NCBI GenBank assembly: GCA_947454525.1
Contig: CANGJM010000002.1
Span: 62,001-126,000, forward strand
Length of the DNA stretch: 64,000 nucleotides
Origin: Flavobacteriales bacterium
GTDB lineage: Bacteria; Bacteroidota; Bacteroidia; Flavobacteriales_D; Crocinitomicaceae
Direction: 5' to 3'
Part shown: in pieces, positions 9,000 to 18,244 of the stretch
Numbering within the stretch: position 1 is the stretch's first letter
How the letters are laid out: each line of letters begins with the position of its first letter
Program-made: the position numbers and the translations under genes
Notes under the pieces: generated by a model
What the model saw: the letters and a program-made list of their open reading frames with translations, nothing else
Databases searched by the model: none
Told to the model about the DNA's origin: nothing

Positions 9000-9057
9000 A
9001 TTGCTTATATTTAGTGATTATTCGATTATAAAGGTAGTGATTGATGGAGTGATATTT

Positions 9058-9075
9058 TTTAGTACTTGTTCTAAA
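9058..9075. promoter_or_regulatory. Candidate operator, copy 1 (imperfect palindrome)
   Basis: TTTAGTACTTGTTCTAAA matches the perfect palindrome at 18227-18244 at 16 of 18 positions, with the conserved half-site TGTTCTAAA intact. It is 59 bp upstream of the lipoprotein gene start. A -7-like TACCTTTA (minus strand, 9029-9036) lies between site and gene, with no -33 TTG at normal spacing, which would fit an activator-dependent promoter. Confidence 0.65.
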
Positions 9076-9088
9076 AGTCAATCAATTA

Positions 9089-9127
9089 TCACCTCAACAC
9101 CAACTTCTTAAGACTTTGGTGTCTTGT
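9089..9127 (-). pseudogene. Remnant of a T9SS sorting-domain 3' end
   Basis: In a frame different from the gene that ends at 9127, the minus strand reads RHQSLKKLVLR and stop (TGA at 9089-9091). This resembles the C-terminus WVKKLVVR of the T9SS protein at 11722-13326, and the DNA ACCTCAnCACCAACTTCTT is shared between 9091 and 11722. It appears to be the leftover end of a second copy of that gene family. Confidence 0.55.
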
Positions 9128-10908
9128 TATAACTTTATGATTTTCCCTAACCAACTTCTCGACTTTCCAATTATTTTAATGTGGTATTTACCAGCGAGTT
9201 CCGAGTTTAGGTCTACTTCGAAGCCATTAAATGCCGAAACTTGTTTATAGTTGGCTACTAGGCGACCGAATTCATCGGTGATTTGAATATCGAGTAATTC
9301 ATTGGTTGGTAAAAGGATCGTGAACGAATTAAAAGTAGGATTTGGATACATGTTTAGTTCCGCTTCATTGTTGTCGGGGACATGTGCCTCTTGAATTAAT
9401 TCATAAACTAAAGTGTCTTTACAGCCTATGGTGCTCACTGTCATTTGATAAGATTTAGACTGCGCATATTGATGCTGGACAAAAAACAGTTCGCTTGAAT
9501 CGGAATAAGAAGTTTGGAAGTTGGTCGAAGGAGTACCATCACCCCAATCAATGGTTGTTTCAAAAAATGAATCAGCCTCAATTTGAACTGAGACTAATCC
9601 ATCTTGCTCATTGGTTTGAACATTGTGCATCATATCTGTCATTCTACCTAGGCAGTTGACTTTGGCTACGAAGGCTTTTTGGTAAAAGAAAAAATCTTCC
9701 ATAATGCCTCCATAAATGATAATATCATCGTTCGGCAATGAAATATAACCTAGTCCTAAAGTAGAATTTTCACTAGACGTATGAAAAGACCGTTCCCAAA
9801 TTTTTTCGCCATTTGGGTCTATACAAAGTAAGCGCGTTTGTAGGCTTTGGTCACCATCCATTTGCTGAAAGTCGCCATCAGTTCCTTTAAAAATATCGTT
9901 ACCGAAAAATAAAAGGTTGCCAGATTCGAGCTTCAATGCCCCCCAAATATTTGATGCATAGGGTTTTGCTTGGTCTTGAAGATGCAATTTTTGAATTGGA
10001 TAATAGTTTTCCCAGAGAAGATTCCCTTCTTGATTAAATTTTTTGATATAACTTATAAAATGCGTATTATTTACGGAATTTGAGGAATCTCTTACACCAA
10101 AGAAAAACAAACTACTATCAGAATTCTGAAATGAACAAGATGTTATATTTTGATTCAACAAAAACAATTGTTTTTTCCATGTGAAATCTTCATTTAATAA
10201 AAAGAATTGCCCTATTGATGAATTGATACTTGTATTTGAACGTATTTGAACTAGATAAGATTTATTTAGTAATTGTCGAACATGATGAATAGTGCCAATA
10301 TTTGAAGGTATATGTGGAATAATATGTGATAAATCTGTGGTGAACTTTAATGCCCCAGTTGTGTCAAAAATACCAATTAATGCACGTGAATTAGGACTTC
10401 GACCAAAGCAAATTATATCGCCATTTTTTTGGATGGTAAATTCAGAATACCAATCTGAATCTATTATAGATGGGTATGCATCTAACTCAAATTCTGTACT
10501 AATTCCTTGTTGTATATTCGTGTACTTTCGGAGGGTTCTTACAACGTTATCCTGCATTCCCATATCAATGAACTGGTCGTCAACAAACCCTGATGAAAAT
10601 GGTGGATTTTCAATTCCCATTAATGCAACGTTAGGCTCAATTCTCTTTTCAAGGAGCACTCCTGTATTAACATCAATAAACTCGAGTGTCCGTTGATAAA
10701 TTTGGTCATTTCCACCCAAAAATTGTTGACCCAATAATAAAACAGTGTCCTCAGATAACAGTACTCCTCCGGCATAAAAATGATAATATGAAGGATGAGT
10801 TGAATCTGAAGCTAAGTGAATTCTATTAAAATACGGATAACTTGAAGGGGTTTGAGACCTAACCCAAACCCCATAAAACATGACTGCGGCAAACGCTATA
10901 AATCTCAT
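9127..10908 (-). CDS. T9SS-exported protein with PKD-like domain
   Basis: A 593-residue secreted protein. An N-terminal signal peptide (RFIAFAAVMFYGVWVRSQ) leads into a long beta-propeller-like region rich in repeated phrases about event or value displays, then a PKD-like domain (about 440-505; TIDWGDGTPS), then a type A sorting domain (about 515-593; MYPNPTFNSF ... GKYHIKIIGKSRSWLGKIIKL shortened to KIIKL end). The T9SS would carry it across the outer membrane to the surface or medium. Its ATG overlaps the stop of a 54-codon frame (ATGA), placing it in the operon with the membrane protein and the two-component genes. Confidence 0.85.
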   Translation of the reverse strand: MRFIAFAAVMFYGVWVRSQTPSSYPYFNRIHLASDSTHPSYYHFYAGGVLLSEDTVLLLGQQFLGGNDQIYQRTLEFIDVNTGVLLEKRIEPNVALMGIENPPFSSGFVDDQFIDMGMQDNVVRTLRKYTNIQQGISTEFELDAYPSIIDSDWYSEFTIQKNGDIICFGRSPNSRALIGIFDTTGALKFTTDLSHIIPHIPSNIGTIHHVRQLLNKSYLVQIRSNTSINSSIGQFFLLNEDFTWKKQLFLLNQNITSCSFQNSDSSLFFFGVRDSSNSVNNTHFISYIKKFNQEGNLLWENYYPIQKLHLQDQAKPYASNIWGALKLESGNLLFFGNDIFKGTDGDFQQMDGDQSLQTRLLCIDPNGEKIWERSFHTSSENSTLGLGYISLPNDDIIIYGGIMEDFFFYQKAFVAKVNCLGRMTDMMHNVQTNEQDGLVSVQIEADSFFETTIDWGDGTPSTNFQTSYSDSSELFFVQHQYAQSKSYQMTVSTIGCKDTLVYELIQEAHVPDNNEAELNMYPNPTFNSFTILLPTNELLDIQITDEFGRLVANYKQVSAFNGFEVDLNSELAGKYHIKIIGKSRSWLGKIIKL

Positions 10909-11069
10909 TCAAGAATAATTAATTTTTCAAATTCGGTTGGCATACTAAAATCACATGGCAACCAACTAACTAACGGAGTTGAGGCAGAAATATTATTTTC
11001 CGCCTGAATTTTATTGTGATCAGTAGTTTCCATCAAAGAATGACTAGTATGATATGGAGTGTACGTCAT
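10905..11069 (-). CDS. Possible small protein (54 aa)
   Basis: An ATG at 11067-11069, 6 nt after the stop of the membrane protein gene, opens a 54-residue frame beginning MTYTPYHTSHSLMETT and ending FEKLIILE. Its TGA overlaps the ATG of the downstream T9SS gene as ATGA. The two tight junctions are what one expects of a translated operon gene, and an otherwise unexplained 167-nt gap is filled. It has one cysteine, no membrane segment, and no recognised family. It could instead be a chance frame. Confidence 0.5.
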   Translation of the reverse strand: MTYTPYHTSHSLMETTDHNKIQAENNISASTPLVSWLPCDFSMPTEFEKLIILE

Positions 11070-11075
11070 GTGAAA

Positions 11076-11687
11076 TTATTTTTTTCCTGTCAAATAAATC
11101 ACATAGGACAAGGCAACGTTGAACAAGATGACGATGGAATATACATATGGGAATAAGCGCATAAAGAGTGACATGTCGCTTCGGATGATGTCTTCAAAAA
11201 TGAAATACAATATGAGTGTAGAATAATAGGTGAAAACAGACACGGCGAAAAGCTTTTTGCCATTTTGAAGGGATTCTTTTGAACGAACTACGAGGTAAAA
11301 ATTGATGAAAATGACAAGGGAATAAGTGTATATTGTTGCATACCAGTTATTCAACCAAAAGTCCCAGGTTGTAAGAAATTCAATCAGAGCAATTAGTAAA
11401 ACACTAGCTTGAAACAAGCGAATGGTTCTTGTTTTAAACAGTGCTTGACTTCGGGCAAGTTCCAAGTAAAAAAGACCTTCGCAGACCACCGTAAAGTGAG
11501 CCATTGGCAAAGAGGAATCGAGTTGTTTTTCCAAGAAAAGACTGATCACATCTGTTATAAATCGATAAAGAAAAAAGGCCAGTAATAACTTGTTAAACTT
11601 GGAATGCTCCATTTTTTTCCAAGTAGTTAGGAAAAAAAATACGGGAAGCACACTTGATAAAGACGCGAAATAATAAAAGTAGCTCAT
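11076..11687 (-). CDS. Multi-pass membrane protein, paralogue A
   Basis: A 203-residue integral membrane protein with about six or seven hydrophobic segments. The ATG at 11685-11687 is chosen over an upstream TTG because it aligns with the paralogues at 16790 and 17502 (pattern MxxFxxxxxxxxxxSxLP). It shares their layout, including a conserved region near PMAHFTVVCEGLFYL, equivalent to PAAHISICIEFYILL and PAVHFSVLFEFYILL. No family name is known to me. It sits in the operon of the kinase, regulator and T9SS genes. A 7TM-type signal receptor or transporter are both conceivable. Confidence 0.75.
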   Translation of the reverse strand: MSYFYYFASLSSVLPVFFFLTTWKKMEHSKFNKLLLAFFLYRFITDVISLFLEKQLDSSLPMAHFTVVCEGLFYLELARSQALFKTRTIRLFQASVLLIALIEFLTTWDFWLNNWYATIYTYSLVIFINFYLVVRSKESLQNGKKLFAVSVFTYYSTLILYFIFEDIIRSDMSLFMRLFPYVYSIVILFNVALSYVIYLTGKK

Positions 11688-11721
11688 GGGACTCAAAAGT
11701 TGTATTCGTTCTATTATTTAC

Positions 11722-13326
11722 CTACCTCACCACCAACTTCTTCACCCATTGCTGTTCTCCTTGCGAAATATGCGCAAAATAAACTCCCGTTGCTTGTTCA
11801 CTCATATCAAAGGAATTATCAGAAGAAAGTTTATTGAGCTCAAATACTGCCACTTGTTTTCCTTGCTGGTCTAGCATGGTAATAAGCATGGGTTCTTCAC
11901 TTAAGCTAGAAACTTGAAAAATTCCGTCAGAAGGGTTGGGAAAAATTCCGATTTCTGTAGCTGTGGCATTAACTACTTCTATTCCTAAATATTGTCCGGC
12001 TTGATCGTATCCGTCTGGGTCGGTTCGGTAGGTGAAGTAATAGGTACTGTCTGAACTTGCTCTGGTTGCACCTGCAAACAATAAATCTCCATTATTGGCT
12101 ATTGTCATAGAAGTTAAATATTGTTGGGGATCACCATTGATTAAAAAATGTTTACAAAAAATGCGATTTCCAGCCATATTTCGTTTTTCTAGAAAAAACA
12201 GAGGCTCGAATGTGTTATTTTGATTTGTAACATTTCCATAAACAAAAATTGAATTTGTAAAGGTGTCGATGACAAGTTGTGGGTTGTCGTTATACAAATA
12301 TTGACTTTGAGGAAGTGTTCCAACTTTTTCACACCATTGCACATTAAATGTAGAATCCATTTTGTTTACAAAGACTTTGAATACATCTTCACCATTATTA
12401 CATGTTTCAGATCGTGTAGTAAGAAATGCTAATTTGTCCTTTTTTGAATCAGCAGATACGACCCAATCACAGGCAATTGATGAATTATGAAGGCTAAAGT
12501 CCTTATAAATTTCTTGGAAGGAAATGACAGAATCTTGATTCCAATACCAAATTGTTGGAGAGCCACCAAAAAAATCATTGTTTGGATGTAGTCCATCGGC
12601 TCTGATTTGTTCACCAATAGATAGGTAAGCATTTTTAAATGGAAACGTATATTGCAATTGGCCTTGAACAATAGGTAAGTTTGCATAAACATTACCCAAT
12701 GGTAATTCTATGGAATCTAAAATTGTAGCATCATTTTGAAGTAACAAAACATACGGCTTGGTATAAATTGACCCAAGTGCGGGAGAAATGATACTTGGAT
12801 TGAAATATGTTTTGAATCCTGATAGTGCAGATAAATTATAATCAAGTTCTGTGGAATGCATATAACGCTGAAGGGTATCAATAGAGAATTTATTTTTGTG
12901 AATGATACCTGTATTGTAATCAAACAACGCCAAATGTAATGAATCATCTAAGACTTGGTCATCTTCTTCTTTATAACCCATCATTAGAACATCGGATCGC
13001 TTTACAAGACCCGTTGAATATGTTAAAGTATATAGTGAATTTATATGTGTTGTATCTATGTATTTCCATAAGAGTGAATGGTTGTTTTTATCTAGACTTA
13101 TAATCCCCGCATAGCGATTAAAATTATACCCTTCATAACCTGAAAGGAAATATTGTTCTCCAATCTCATAGATGTATGTACCTTCAAAATAAGTATAAAC
13201 CTGTGGCAAAGTAGTTACGGCCGGAGTTGAATATTTGTAAAGCCCTCTAATAGGATTAGTAGATTGAGAAAAACTGGTGAATGCAGCCAAAAAGCATAAA
13301 ATGAGTAAGATTGCACGTATTTTCAT
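11722..13326 (-). CDS. T9SS-exported protein, beta-propeller-like
   Basis: A 534-residue secreted protein with signal peptide (ILLILCFLAAFTSFSQ), a long beta-rich body without a recognised enzyme motif, and a sorting domain (about 455-534; IGIFPNPSDGIFQVSSLSEE ... ending WVKKLVVR). The tail is closely related to that of the protein at 14962-16551, so these are paralogues. It follows the response regulator gene after 46 nt and precedes membrane paralogue A by 34 nt. A surface or secreted role is expected; substrate or partner is unknown. Confidence 0.85.
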   Translation of the reverse strand: MKIRAILLILCFLAAFTSFSQSTNPIRGLYKYSTPAVTTLPQVYTYFEGTYIYEIGEQYFLSGYEGYNFNRYAGIISLDKNNHSLLWKYIDTTHINSLYTLTYSTGLVKRSDVLMMGYKEEDDQVLDDSLHLALFDYNTGIIHKNKFSIDTLQRYMHSTELDYNLSALSGFKTYFNPSIISPALGSIYTKPYVLLLQNDATILDSIELPLGNVYANLPIVQGQLQYTFPFKNAYLSIGEQIRADGLHPNNDFFGGSPTIWYWNQDSVISFQEIYKDFSLHNSSIACDWVVSADSKKDKLAFLTTRSETCNNGEDVFKVFVNKMDSTFNVQWCEKVGTLPQSQYLYNDNPQLVIDTFTNSIFVYGNVTNQNNTFEPLFFLEKRNMAGNRIFCKHFLINGDPQQYLTSMTIANNGDLLFAGATRASSDSTYYFTYRTDPDGYDQAGQYLGIEVVNATATEIGIFPNPSDGIFQVSSLSEEPMLITMLDQQGKQVAVFELNKLSSDNSFDMSEQATGVYFAHISQGEQQWVKKLVVR

Positions 13327-13372
13327 AGCTTGTGTTTTTAAGGTTCAAATTCATTGTTTACTGACAGCTTTT

Positions 13373-14122
13373 TTAAGCATTCGGATCCCGGAGGCGTTGC
13401 ATGCGTCGTTCTAACTTTTCTATTTCGGAGGCTTCGATTTCTGCCTGTATTTCTTCGTTGGTTCTTGGGGTGTAAAATCCATCGAGGATGCTCAAACGCA
13501 TGAGTTCATTCGATGTTTTGACCTGATAAGCCTTGAGCAAGCGCGTGCGAATCAAGTCGACCGTTTTTTTCGAAGTACTGATGCGATCTCCGATTTCCTT
13601 GCTGGTTAATCCATCGCATAAATAGTGTAAGACCCTTAAATCTCGGTCGGAAAATCCACGGAAAATTTGTTTTTGCTGCCGCTTGTGGTGTTTGTATTTT
13701 TCGTTTTCAAAAGAATTTTCGGAAAAGGCACTTAAAAAAGCCCCGTTTAACTGGACTTGTTCAATGGCAAATATCATTTCTTCCATGGAACATTCTTTTA
13801 ATAAATAAGAAGCTGCTCCGAAGCGCAGGCATTCCATCGCAATTTCAGGGTCGTTGTGCATCGATAACATAATGGCCTTCACCTCCGGATGCGAAATACT
13901 CAATTGTTGCACCGTTTGAATGCCATTTAAAACGGGCATTTCGATGTCTAAGAGTACAATGTCCACCTCGCTTGACTGCAATTGGTCTAAGAATTCTTGT
14001 CCGTTGGCTGCAACAATCACCAGATTCAAATGCGCGTAGGCCTGGAGCATACTCGCTAAGCCTTGCCTAACAATGGCATGGTCGTCTACAAGCGCGAGGC
14101 GTATGTGCGTGGATTCAGTCAT
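13373..14122 (-). CDS. LuxR/NarL-type response regulator
   Basis: A 249-residue response regulator. Receiver domain: acidic pair D13-D14, phosphoacceptor D59 in VLLDIEMP, S87 and K109 in SYLLKE. Output domain: LuxR helix-turn-helix at about 155-215 (FSDRDLRVLHYLCDGLTSKE, IGDRISTSKKTVDLIRTRLL). A charged C-terminal tail of about 30 residues is extra compared with typical members. Its ATG directly follows the stop of the histidine kinase with no gap, so it is the cognate partner. NarL-type dimers bind short palindromes, so it is the prime candidate for the three 18-bp palindromes around this locus. Confidence 0.93.
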   Translation of the reverse strand: MTESTHIRLALVDDHAIVRQGLASMLQAYAHLNLVIVAANGQEFLDQLQSSEVDIVLLDIEMPVLNGIQTVQQLSISHPEVKAIMLSMHNDPEIAMECLRFGAASYLLKECSMEEMIFAIEQVQLNGAFLSAFSENSFENEKYKHHKRQQKQIFRGFSDRDLRVLHYLCDGLTSKEIGDRISTSKKTVDLIRTRLLKAYQVKTSNELMRLSILDGFYTPRTNEEIQAEIEASEIEKLERRMQRLRDPNA

Positions 14123-14929
14123 TTAAGCGAATTGAAGTTCAGTGATTAAATGAATCTCCCCCTGCTGTGCATGGCGTTGAAAGGAAAGTTTCGCGGAGAT
14201 TTGTCGGCAACGATAGCGAATATTATCTAATCCTTGTCCGTTTGTATTGGTCTGCAATTTTTCATAGTCCTCGCCGCTCAAGGCGATGCCATCGTGTTGT
14301 ATCGTCAAGTGCATTTGTGGTGCATGGTAGTCCAATTTCATGTTGACCTTTTTTGGCAAACTATGTTTCATCAAGTTGGTCATGAGTTCACTGGCAATGT
14401 AAAAGAAATGCGTCATGGTTTCCTCTTGGATGCGCAGTTTTGGGGGGAGGTTGGACTCGAATTGAAAATCATCACTCAGGACATTTGTTTTTTGTTGTCC
14501 CATGCGCTCTAGTCCTTTGGAGAGTCCAAACTTCTGCAAGTAAAAGGGCATCAGATCGTTGCTCATGCTGCGAATTTCCTCGATGCTTTGTTGGATTAAA
14601 GTCGAAGCATTCGAAAGGGTAAGCGCTTGCTGAGAAGACAACTGGGATTCATCTTCGAGTAATTGCAAGTTCTTTTGGGCCATGGACAGTAAGGCGCCTA
14701 GTTCATCGTGTAGTTTGCGTGCGATTTTACTGCGTTCGGCTTCTTGTGTGGAAACGGTCAAGGCTAGTTTGTCGTTTTCTTGTCGTTCAATTTCATCCTT
14801 CAGTAATTGCTCACCCAAGGCTTTGATCTGCCGATTTTTATCCGCGAGAAAAACCATCCCAATTCCCATCACAAGAGAAAAGAGCATTCCAAGGTTGATC
14901 AATAAAGCGAGTTCTTCCGGATTTTTCAT
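14123..14929 (-). CDS. Histidine kinase with minimal sensor region (HisKA_3)
   Basis: A 268-residue kinase starting at the ATG at 14927-14929, since a longer frame would overlap the upstream gene without added signal. One membrane segment (about 8-29), a coiled linker, the HisKA_3 box with H74 (ERSKIARKLHDELGALL), an N-box (ASELMTNLMKHS), a reduced G1 motif (IQHDGIAL) and G2 (GQGLDNIRYRC). It should autophosphorylate and pass phosphate to the adjacent LuxR-type regulator. There is essentially no periplasmic sensor domain, so sensing probably depends on partner proteins. It follows a T9SS gene after 32 nt. Confidence 0.92.
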   Translation of the reverse strand: MKNPEELALLINLGMLFSLVMGIGMVFLADKNRQIKALGEQLLKDEIERQENDKLALTVSTQEAERSKIARKLHDELGALLSMAQKNLQLLEDESQLSSQQALTLSNASTLIQQSIEEIRSMSNDLMPFYLQKFGLSKGLERMGQQKTNVLSDDFQFESNLPPKLRIQEETMTHFFYIASELMTNLMKHSLPKKVNMKLDYHAPQMHLTIQHDGIALSGEDYEKLQTNTNGQGLDNIRYRCRQISAKLSFQRHAQQGEIHLITELQFA

Positions 14930-14961
14930 GTAGTTATAGTGTATTCTAAAGTTAGGTAAAC

Positions 14962-16551
14962 TTATTGCAGCACCACTTTCTTCACCCAAAACTGATCGCC
15001 TTGTTTTACATGAATAAAGTATATTCCTGGAGCTTGGTTTTCTAGTTGAATGGTTGATGTAAATTGACCTTCTAACTGAATTCTTGAACCTTGTTGATCA
15101 TATACTTCAACTTCCATTGGTTCTTCAGACAAACTTTCTAAATGAAAAATTCCTGTTGATGGATTCGGGTAAACACCCAACTCGTTTTGATTGACTTGTG
15201 TTTCTTCGATGCCTAGGTAATCGGCATATTTGGTGATTCCATCCGGAGTAAATCGTATGATGAAAATAGGTGGGGACTCATAAGTATCCTCGTACGATAG
15301 TTGACCACTAAAAGCGATGTCTCCATTTGGACAAATGCTTCCTGCCCATATAGTCAATTTATATATTTCTTTTGTTGTTGAATAATTGGAATCAAAATAT
15401 TTCTTGAATATAAATTGCCCATTATAATCTAATTTATAAATGAATTGCTTGTAATAACTATAATCATTTCCAATAATATTAAAAATTGTCCCAGAAACAT
15501 AAATCCATTGATTTACTGTGTCGACAACGAGTGTATTCGCAGAAAATTCAAATTGATCTAATGGAAATGAGGTATTATTTCGTAAATCTTTTGTCCATTT
15601 TATGTGAAGATTGGAATCTACGTATCTTAAAATCATTTTAATCGGACCAAAACTAACTTGGCCATTTTCATACATCCAATCATCATCTCTGGATAAAGAA
15701 ACATATTCATTTTTTTTTGCTTCTTGCACATTTTTAACTAATGTGGCTTTCAAAGTATCAGATTCTGTAAGGAATTGTTCAGACAAAATCTGGCCATTTT
15801 TACTTGTGAAAATTCTGGTCTTGCAATAAGATTGATTGCCAAACATTGCATTTTTATCAACAAATGAAATAATAGAGGAATCTTTGTATTCGAATGATTT
15901 ACGAACATTAATTGGTTGCCAACCCATTGACCAAAGATTGGGTTGAAAAAAAGTATTGCTAATGATTTCTCCATCTGGGGTTATATTTAATAAAACCCCT
16001 CCTCCCAGAGAGTCAACATTATTTATTCCACTTAATAGGATTGAGCTATCTTTTAATTCCTTTACATCAAAAATTTGAATCTCATTTTGATTTGAGTCAA
16101 AATATTTTTTTCTAAAAATGATATTTCCATTAGGCGCATATTTGCTAATAACCAGTTGAAAATTGGCTGGGTCATCGTTTATGCCTGGTTCACCCTGATC
16201 TGTGACCGTCAAATAATTTCCATCAAGAGTAGTTATAAGAGAATAATACCACATGATTCCTGAATTATTGTAACCTTCAGTAATGTGATCCCAAACATAC
16301 CCCTTCCATTCTTCATCAATGCAAAAAGCATATGATTTTTGATCCCAACCTCCTGATAAGCCTATATTACCCGCTCCAATATATGTAGAATCTGTAGCAA
16401 TTAGCGCGGAGCACTGAAAGACGTAATAATCATTAGTGACGAAACCAGCAGCTGGTGTCCAATATTTTTCAAAGTAATCGGGATGATTGTTCTGCTGGGT
16501 GAACGCAAAAGAAAAAATCATCAGGGATATAACTAAAAGTGTCTGTTTCAT
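14962..16551 (-). CDS. T9SS-exported protein, paralogue of 11722-13326
   Basis: A 529-residue secreted protein: signal peptide (LLVISLMIFSFAFTQ), long beta-rich body, and a type A sorting domain (about 455-529; GVYPNPSTGIFHLESLSEE ... FWVKKVVLQ). It is the first gene of the presumed operon T9SS protein, kinase, regulator, T9SS protein, membrane protein, small protein, T9SS protein. A palindrome lies 66-83 bp upstream of its ATG. Its body is similar in style to, but not clearly the same family as, known propellers. Confidence 0.86.
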   Translation of the reverse strand: MKQTLLVISLMIFSFAFTQQNNHPDYFEKYWTPAAGFVTNDYYVFQCSALIATDSTYIGAGNIGLSGGWDQKSYAFCIDEEWKGYVWDHITEGYNNSGIMWYYSLITTLDGNYLTVTDQGEPGINDDPANFQLVISKYAPNGNIIFRKKYFDSNQNEIQIFDVKELKDSSILLSGINNVDSLGGGVLLNITPDGEIISNTFFQPNLWSMGWQPINVRKSFEYKDSSIISFVDKNAMFGNQSYCKTRIFTSKNGQILSEQFLTESDTLKATLVKNVQEAKKNEYVSLSRDDDWMYENGQVSFGPIKMILRYVDSNLHIKWTKDLRNNTSFPLDQFEFSANTLVVDTVNQWIYVSGTIFNIIGNDYSYYKQFIYKLDYNGQFIFKKYFDSNYSTTKEIYKLTIWAGSICPNGDIAFSGQLSYEDTYESPPIFIIRFTPDGITKYADYLGIEETQVNQNELGVYPNPSTGIFHLESLSEEPMEVEVYDQQGSRIQLEGQFTSTIQLENQAPGIYFIHVKQGDQFWVKKVVLQ

Positions 16552-16616
16552 AGGATTAGATTTCGTTTCGTTAAATGTAATTTTTAATCAACTGATAAAA
16601 AAACACTTACTTCAAT

Positions 16617-16634
16617 TTTAGTACATGTTCTAAA
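16617..16634. promoter_or_regulatory. Candidate operator, copy 2
   Basis: TTTAGTACATGTTCTAAA differs from the perfect palindrome at 18227 by one base. It is 66 bp upstream of the T9SS gene that leads the kinase-regulator operon, so if the regulator binds here the system controls itself. A -7-like TACATTTA is at 16572-16579 on the minus strand. Confidence 0.7.
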
Positions 16635-16789
16635 GATGGAATTCACTAACCGAACAGGCTTTAAATGAACCAGATAGTTTACGCTTGGTATCCCTCAATT
16701 GCTTGTTATTGAAAAAGTTAACAGCAATAATCACTTTCATTTGGAACCCATAAAAATCCAGCGTTTCTGCCAAATCCTGATTTTCATGT

Positions 16790-17449
16790 TCAATACGCGG
16801 AGTTCAATGATTGCTTGGTGAATTTATCAGCGGATGAATGATTTGAACGGATAATTCCCCACATGAAAGCAACACTTAAAGCTGCGTTGATGAGGGCAAA
16901 GAGCGGAAATACCATGTCTAACACAAGTGGATTGACGATCATCAAATTTCCAAAAGCCTCATGAACGAAGCATACTAAAAAGTACAGGAAAAAGGCGGTA
17001 ACAAAGTTACTTTCTTTCTTCTTTAATCCGATTTTATAGATGATTCGAAAGGCAAAACAAGCATTTGCAAAAAAGTAGATAACTCCGCTCAACTTGACAA
17101 ATTCATACAGAGATGTAACCCAAAACGCATCCGCTAAAAAGGGAAGAAGACCTGCGATGGCAATGACTTGAATGTGTTTTATCGGCAATATCGCATGAAA
17201 CAAGTAAAGCAGGATATAAAATTCAATACAAATCGAAATATGTGCTGCGGGAATCGGGTTTGAATCTAAGAAATCAAGCAGTATGATCTGCGACGCGTGG
17301 TGCAGGACATTGTAGATAAAATAGGCTATCAATCCCCTTCGTACCTGTTTCGAAAATCCTTTGAGCGCTCTGGGGAACAAGGCAAGTGCGATGAAGGGCA
17401 GTAAGCTTGTTGCAACGGTGGAGTAGTAAATGGTATTAAAAAAGTCCAT
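16790..17449 (-). CDS. Multi-pass membrane protein, paralogue B
   Basis: A 219-residue integral membrane protein with about seven hydrophobic segments and a hydrophilic C-terminal tail. It is clearly homologous to the adjacent protein at 17502 (shared YxVLHHAxxIIL, PAxHxSxxxEFYILLxLFH, IxPIKxIxxI, LPFLxDxFW) and more distantly to the one at 11076. No characterised family is recognised. It lies 52 nt downstream of paralogue C and 238 nt upstream of the T9SS gene. Confidence 0.75.
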   Translation of the reverse strand: MDFFNTIYYSTVATSLLPFIALALFPRALKGFSKQVRRGLIAYFIYNVLHHASQIILLDFLDSNPIPAAHISICIEFYILLYLFHAILPIKHIQVIAIAGLLPFLADAFWVTSLYEFVKLSGVIYFFANACFAFRIIYKIGLKKKESNFVTAFFLYFLVCFVHEAFGNLMIVNPLVLDMVFPLFALINAALSVAFMWGIIRSNHSSADKFTKQSLNSAY

Positions 17450-17501
17450 AGGGTCTAAATTGAGTGAATATCCTTTTAATGAAGTTCCTGTATGAACGGA
17501 A

Positions 17502-18134
17502 TTACGTCGTTTTCACAGAAAGTCTTTTTCGCTGTTCAAGTACTCCCCATGTCAATACTGAATAAAAGATTAGGTGGACCACCATAAAAACAGGCACCAC
17601 TTGGAGAAAAATGCTTATGTTTTCGATGATAAAATGATAAAATACAGAATAGGCCAAGCAGCATAAAAAGTATAAAAGAAGCGTAATGGAGAAAATGGTT
17701 TCTTTTCCCTCAAAGCCTTTTTCGTAAATGATTTTATAGGAAAAGTAGATGCTTGTGGAATAATACAATACCGAACTCACGATCACATCCTCCATTAATG
17801 TGGATGTCCAAAACAAATCCAACAAAAAGGGAAGGACACCAAGAATGGAAATCAGTCGAATGCGTTTGATTGGTCGGATGCCGTGAAACAAAGAAAGGAG
17901 GATGTAAAATTCAAACAAGACAGAAAAATGTACCGCAGGTTCGGAATCTCGAATCCAATATTGGAGGATAATACACGCTACATGATGCAGCACTAGGTAA
18001 ACAAAAAACCAAATTAAGCCCTTGCGCACAGCCTTGCTAAATCCTGCTAAGGAATGAGGGAATAGGATGTAGGTAATAATGGGCAATAAACTGGCTGAAA
18101 CAGTAATCCAATAAATAAAATGAAATAAACGCAT
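17502..18134 (-). CDS. Multi-pass membrane protein, paralogue C
   Basis: A 210-residue membrane protein, the tandem partner of paralogue B, with the same seven-segment pattern and conserved histidines in LVLHHVACIIL and AVHFSVLFEFYILL. It is the first gene of a two-gene unit and is preceded, 93-110 bp upstream, by the perfect 18-bp palindrome. Conserved His and Glu inside membrane segments could mean ligand or ion binding; that is a guess. Confidence 0.75.
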   Translation of the reverse strand: MRLFHFIYWITVSASLLPIITYILFPHSLAGFSKAVRKGLIWFFVYLVLHHVACIILQYWIRDSEPAVHFSVLFEFYILLSLFHGIRPIKRIRLISILGVLPFLLDLFWTSTLMEDVIVSSVLYYSTSIYFSYKIIYEKGFEGKETIFSITLLLYFLCCLAYSVFYHFIIENISIFLQVVPVFMVVHLIFYSVLTWGVLEQRKRLSVKTT

Positions 18135-18226
18135 AGTCGGTATGGGTATAATATGTTGAATTCGCCGATTTGAAAGTTAGGAAGAAAATGGATGTTTTAA
18201 AAATGCGGTATCTACATTGTGTCATA

Positions 18227-18244
18227 TTTAGAACATGTTCTAAA
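18227..18244. promoter_or_regulatory. Candidate operator, copy 3 (perfect 18-bp palindrome)
   Basis: TTTAGAACATGTTCTAAA equals its own reverse complement. It has no loop and no GC stem, so it is a protein-binding site type rather than a terminator. It lies 93 bp upstream of membrane paralogue C and is the best of three copies within 9.2 kb. Confidence 0.75.

Follow-up and report, generated by a model that had tools for sequence, protein, structure and literature searches.

Three copies of an 18-bp palindrome were found upstream of three transcription units of a single locus in the 64,000-nucleotide stretch of DNA that was analysed (the window), which belongs to a freshwater Bacteroidetes genome of 2.83 Mb. 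The palindrome is best read, with a probability of roughly 0.8, as the operator of the resident NarL/FixJ regulator (13373-14122), which would activate all three units, its own operon included. That the three sites serve the resident LuxR-type regulator as a common operator had been proposed in the preliminary description, and this proposal is supported by what was computed: the exclusivity of the sites, their conservation with the regulator in orthologues, variants that match the regulator clades, the phasing to the promoter -7 box and the 21-22 bp repeats among relatives. The locus is probably self-regulated, as had also been suggested, since one of the sites precedes the operon that holds both the kinase and the regulator.

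We infer that the phosphorylated regulator would bind as a dimer to the inverted repeat (core TAGAAC-AT-GTTCTA), with one half-site per monomer. The operator would lie upstream of a -33/-7 promoter in each of the three transcription units, and the bound dimer would activate transcription, probably through contacts with RNA polymerase made from positions near -42, -58 and -68. The first unit would be the stand-alone membrane-protein pair, the second the operon that encodes a T9SS-secreted protein together with kinase and regulator (hence positive autoregulation), and the third the lipoprotein gene.

Table 1. Putative operators, candidate -7 boxes and genes of the locus (positions in the window).
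Feature	Position	Strand	Remarks
Operator copy 1, perfect palindrome TTTAGAACATGTTCTAAA	18227-18244	.	0 mismatches; 92 bp before start codon (18134) of first gene of the membrane-protein pair
Candidate -7 box TAACTTTC	18172-18179	-	From TAnnTTTG consensus; operator centre at about -68.5
Membrane protein, 210 aa (mem17502)	17502-18134	-	All-helical membrane bundle predicted
Membrane protein, 219 aa (mem16790)	16790-17449	-	Paralogue of mem17502
Operator copy 2, sense strand TTTAGAACATGTACTAAA	16617-16634	.	1 mismatch; 65 bp before start codon (16551) of the T9SS-kinase-regulator operon
Candidate -7 box TACATTTA	16572-16579	-	Operator centre at about -58.5; spacing common to unrelated promoters
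Secreted protein with T9SS sorting domain (Por_Secre_tail)	14962-16551	-
Sensor kinase, HisKA_3 + HATPase_c	14123-14989	-
Response regulator, receiver + GerE (LuxR/NarL)	13373-14122	-	Recognition helix SKKTVDLIRTRLL
Second T9SS-cargo protein	11722-13326	-	Same operon, by spacing
Third membrane protein	11076-11696	-	Same family as mem17502 and mem16790
Third T9SS-cargo protein	9127-10908	-
Operator copy 3, sense strand TTTAGAACAAGTACTAAA	9058-9075	.	2 mismatches; 58 bp before start codon (8999) of the lipoprotein gene
Candidate -7 box TACCTTTA	9029-9036	-	Operator centre at about -42.5; assigned with less certainty than the other two boxes
Predicted lipoprotein, 144 aa	8565-8999	-

Genes of the locus

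The T9SS-cargo gene, the kinase and the LuxR-type regulator form one operon (16551-13373), and further T9SS and membrane genes lie downstream of the regulator (13326-9127). The regulator displayed the features of the NarL/FixJ type, with an N-terminal receiver carrying the phosphoacceptor Asp (Response_reg, E 1.4e-25; motifs DDH, LLDIEMP and LLKE in the translation), a C-terminal GerE helix-turn-helix (31.7 bits, cut-off 23.5) and a cognate HisKA_3 kinase (37.8 bits) encoded directly upstream in the operon. When genome contigs were searched with the regulator, relatives were retrieved in three MAGs (filed as Flavobacteriales, Crocinitomicaceae and Cryomorphaceae), the rest being generic NarL proteins.

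The three membrane proteins fall in one diverse family (A1). The protein at 17502-18134 matched no family in Pfam or NCBIfam. The model of one of the three was an all-helical bundle (mean pLDDT 82), and its fold search against solved structures gave weak seven-helix matches, none of them significant (best E 0.05). The adjacent multi-helix membrane proteins probably act as sensors, because no sensor domain was recognised in the kinase. The lipoprotein matched no family above the cut-off.

Copies of the palindrome in the window and in the genome

The window scan recovered the three 18-bp palindromes just where they had first been described. No fourth site was present in the window at up to three mismatches, in line with the earlier observation; shuffled sequences gave an expectation of 0.10 sites, and none of 100 shuffles reached three. 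All three copies are intergenic and upstream of minus-strand genes. A search of the whole 2.83 Mb genome for copies in unrelated places yielded no copy beyond these three at up to two mismatches, so that near-perfect copies are confined to this locus. At three mismatches ten more matches appeared, against four for a reversed control pattern.

The half-site TGTTCTAAA, which had been called invariant, is indeed so in the three window copies, but not in the family, where either half varies between A and T in orthologues (e.g. GTTAGTACATGTTCTAAA, TTTAGTACATGTTCTAAT). The conserved core consists of the inner 14 bp, TAG[A/T]AC-NN-GT[A/T]CTA, for which seven exact matches were found in the genome, three in the window and four elsewhere. 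An exact core at C10:116614 lies 94 bp before a T9SS-cargo gene, with TAATTTTG at 56 bp, and a one-mismatch core at C11:15056 precedes another T9SS-type gene and has TACATTTA at 46 bp; both are possible unlinked members of the regulon. The genome contains three regulators of this family (contigs C2, C1 and C14). Core palindromes were also observed upstream of small related genes in the window's own genome (L172:8776, 9982; L173:17012, 17033), which encode proteins of 125-129 aa containing '...PSREELNQMT...'.

Promoter geometry

Flavobacterial -7 boxes (TAnnTTTG) cover positions -12 to -5 (PMC9723704), and a candidate box was assigned to each of the three operators. Most sites of the window clade were located 46 or 56 bp upstream of a -7 box, two spacings that are one helical turn apart. 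The sequence TAnnTTT[A/G] occurred 46 bp from the operator centre in five non-redundant promoters, with 0.24 expected and none of 300 shuffles reaching five. The 56 bp spacing was observed for TAACTTTC in the mem17502-type promoter of three genomes (that of the window, G188 and G174). The box of site 3 is out of the 46/56 phase. Scans for sigma-70 promoters and terminators performed no better than on shuffled sequences, such scans being unsuited to Bacteroidetes promoters.

In the SKKS clade of regulators and a few others, a second palindrome was found at exactly 21-22 bp. At these offsets 18 of 192 neighbour positions scored at least 9/12, against 0-1 of 96 at every other tested offset. No second palindrome was present 21-22 bp from the three window sites, which are single palindromes.

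The same regulator could also use this operator for repression, its dimer blocking the promoters until the signal arrives. Negative autoregulation is common, and the computations would allow either sign of regulation. However, the predicted operator centres (-42, -58 and -68) are upstream of the -7 box and the start site, and the two spacings differ by one helical turn; because of this, activation fits better and is the likelier sign, while repression is considered rather unlikely.

Paralogous cassettes and operator variants

Variants of the core TAG[A/T]AC-NN-GT[A/T]CTA accompany the paralogous kinase-LuxR cassettes of both genus and family. When 86 genomes of the genus were scanned with the degenerate form TTTAGWACWWGTWCTAAA at up to one mismatch, 48 sites were obtained. 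Of these, 22 were within 15 kb of a family regulator, whereas none of the 25 sites of the reversed pattern were (Fisher p 2e-5). This enrichment is supportive but not independent, because the degenerate form was drawn up after some of the loci had been seen and the genomes are related; the tests in the own genome and in the orthologues are free of such circularity. Several of the one-mismatch matches sit within genes, and some near-matches are in genomes where a family regulator was not found (e.g. G148 and G151, which are fragmented assemblies). A cleaner replicate than the genus-wide scan is G113, a genome of another genus, where seven of eight exact TAGAACNNGTTCTA sites are within 13.5 kb of sequence at one HK-LuxR locus with T9SS genes; only one exact site lies outside that locus, and the reversed pattern gave none. 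Over 12 genomes, which were chosen for carrying cassettes, the TAGAACNNGTTCTA core had 37 sites, against three for the reversed pattern.

The operator variant was found to track the regulator clade and the residue after SKK in the recognition helix, which marks the start of that helix in the alignment to NarL. When operator type and this residue were mapped together on a tree of 50 regulators, 17 label changes were needed, against 35.5 after shuffling; the link involves few independent switches. The SKKS regulators pair with TAGTAC, while SKKN regulators pair mainly with TAGAAC (8 rows); among the SKKN/SRKN rows, two were 'mix' and six had no scored site. The window-type SKKT regulators occur with both TAGAAC and TAGTAC. 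No palindrome of this type was found ahead of ARKT-type cassettes, among them the C1 paralogue in the window's own genome. The agreement between variant and clade and the phasing to the -7 box together speak for the LuxR-type regulator and for a promoter function.

The palindrome might instead be bound by an unlinked regulator, for instance a LexA-like one, that happens to control the locus. The form GAAC-N4-GTTC resembles the Gram-positive SOS box, and the core GAACATGTTC matches this form. The LexA DNA-binding domain (PF01726) is however absent from the genome, by which an SOS box was rejected, and, for any unlinked regulator, the sites accompany HK-LuxR cassettes and the variant changes with the LuxR clade; such control is thus very improbable.

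Further features of the cassettes were observed. Most paralogous cassettes begin with the gene of a 104-aa protein whose cysteines are nearly invariant and whose sequence ends in ...LNS (L056, L058-L064, L066-L070, L095, L100, L131, L132, L134 and others). This gene overlaps or abuts the membrane-protein gene and does not occur in the window's locus; the one such protein that was searched had no NCBIfam match. Outside the kinase cassettes, a conserved gene for a protein of about 208 aa ('LIQxPLNKAQYYP...') has TAGTAC palindromes 80-145 bp before its start (L056:10287-10913, L066:169-795, L100:5518-6144, L107:1142-1768), with the 21-22 bp repeat in some. At L058:1886-3478, a T9SS-cargo gene 79% identical to that at 14962-16551 of the window adjoins a cassette with a regulator of only 51% identity, an indication that cargo genes are passed from one cassette to another.

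Orthologous loci

Three orthologous loci could be evaluated, with regulator identities of 94% (G188), 89% (G174) and 70% (G053); two further orthologues, in G084 and G169, were left out of the count as their loci are cut by contig ends. The palindrome was present before the kinase-regulator unit in all three, and before further units in two. Loss of the motif where the regulator is kept, which would have spoken against the proposal, was not seen in any of them. Sites ahead of the operon of the regulator and of the targets linked to it, as in a local autoregulated regulon, are therefore kept in the orthologues, although the secreted-protein (cargo) genes differ between the loci.

In G188 the palindrome occurs three times: one copy precedes a T9SS gene, one mem16790 and one the T9SS-kinase-regulator operon. 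In G174 one copy precedes mem17502-mem16790-HK-LuxR, and others, located on the same contig and on a second one, precede genes for T9SS-type or other predicted secreted proteins. The copy ahead of membrane-HK-LuxR in G053 is perfect, and a T9SS-type gene on a separate contig of that genome is preceded by another. A syntenic copy before a T9SS gene is also kept in G176, where a close regulator orthologue was not found. Comparison of L099:10847-10958 (G188) with window positions 18134-18244 revealed the mem17502 promoter, nearly unchanged, in front of mem16790, a promoter-gene swap within the locus. Shorter proteins whose LuxR-type DNA-binding region is 62-66% identical to that of the window regulator were observed at L051:9788-10309 and L148:7253-7780; in G053, one of these lies just upstream of the palindrome on the same strand.

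The palindromes might alternatively be recombination sites that exchange promoter and cargo modules, and not operators. The cargo and membrane genes are reshuffled among orthologous loci, the mem17502 promoter stands before mem16790 in G188, and in G115 a different cassette is the neighbour of a T9SS gene with 79% identity to 14962-16551. The fixed phase to the -7 box, the 21-22 bp tandem spacing, the constant position before the start and the clade dependence are, however, features of an operator, and recombination sites are judged slightly less probable even than an unlinked regulator. The least credible origin is a segmental duplication of paralogous genes that left the three copies as remnants without present function: the locus does hold three paralogous membrane genes and three T9SS genes, but the flanks of the copies are mutually unalignable beyond the palindrome, so the copies do not stem from a single duplicated stretch, and they are intact across orthologues.

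Comparison with known systems

The operator reading would imply a mechanism of a known kind, for which BvgA is the closest counterpart. BvgA, of the Bordetella BvgAS system, recognizes a 14-bp inverted-heptad site (TAAGAAATTTCCTA is the primary site of fha); its head-to-head dimers are spaced 22 bp centre to centre and bind on one face, upstream of the core promoter (PMC7250471). The resemblance consists in a NarL/FixJ-type regulator and in the 21-22 bp repeat of the window system's relatives. A BvgA-like tandem of palindromes every 22 bp was found in the SKKS clade and a few others, whereas the window sites are single palindromes of another sequence (TAGAACATGTTCTA). In addition, the window kinase is without a Venus-flytrap or PAS domain, and the linked genes encode T9SS cargo and membrane proteins.

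NarL of E. coli (7-2-7 sites) aligns with the window regulator over nearly its full length, receiver and GerE included, and its crystal structure 1a04 was among the best solved relatives of that regulator. The NarL consensus is TACYYMT. The window sequence differs from it, and the regulon is local, in contrast to the global one of NarL.

For FimS/FimR of Porphyromonas gingivalis, FimR binds the mfa1 promoter and not the fimA promoter, and neither a palindrome nor an inverted repeat is mentioned in that report (PMC1974823). This is likewise a Bacteroidetes two-component system, and it controls fimbrial surface proteins. PorX has a CheY-like receiver, is without a LuxR domain and governs genes of the secretion machine, whereas the window regulator carries GerE, is thus not of the PorX type and would control one local cargo set. 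PorXY-SigP is a Bacteroidetes two-component system tied to the T9SS (PMC8050853).

Biological significance

The related cassettes with their own operator variants are the more interesting part of this work, compared with the mechanism. Tentatively, Crocinitomicaceae-like bacteria may possess a family of self-contained cassettes, each comprising a small 104-aa protein, a multi-helix membrane sensor, a kinase and a LuxR-type regulator. Each would read an operator variant of its own, determined in part by the residue that follows SKK in the recognition helix, and would control an exchangeable set of T9SS-secreted surface proteins in its own locus. Targeted literature searches did not find such a set described, which is limited evidence of novelty. 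To our knowledge, the operators of Bacteroidetes LuxR-type response regulators are poorly known, and the control of individual T9SS cargo sets even less so. Here, operator, regulator, promoter phase and variants can be read together across dozens of paralogous cassettes; the specificity between regulator and operator becomes directly testable, and the motif helps to find further T9SS cargo under the same control. If the proposed family is real, several cassettes could coexist in one cell without cross-talk.
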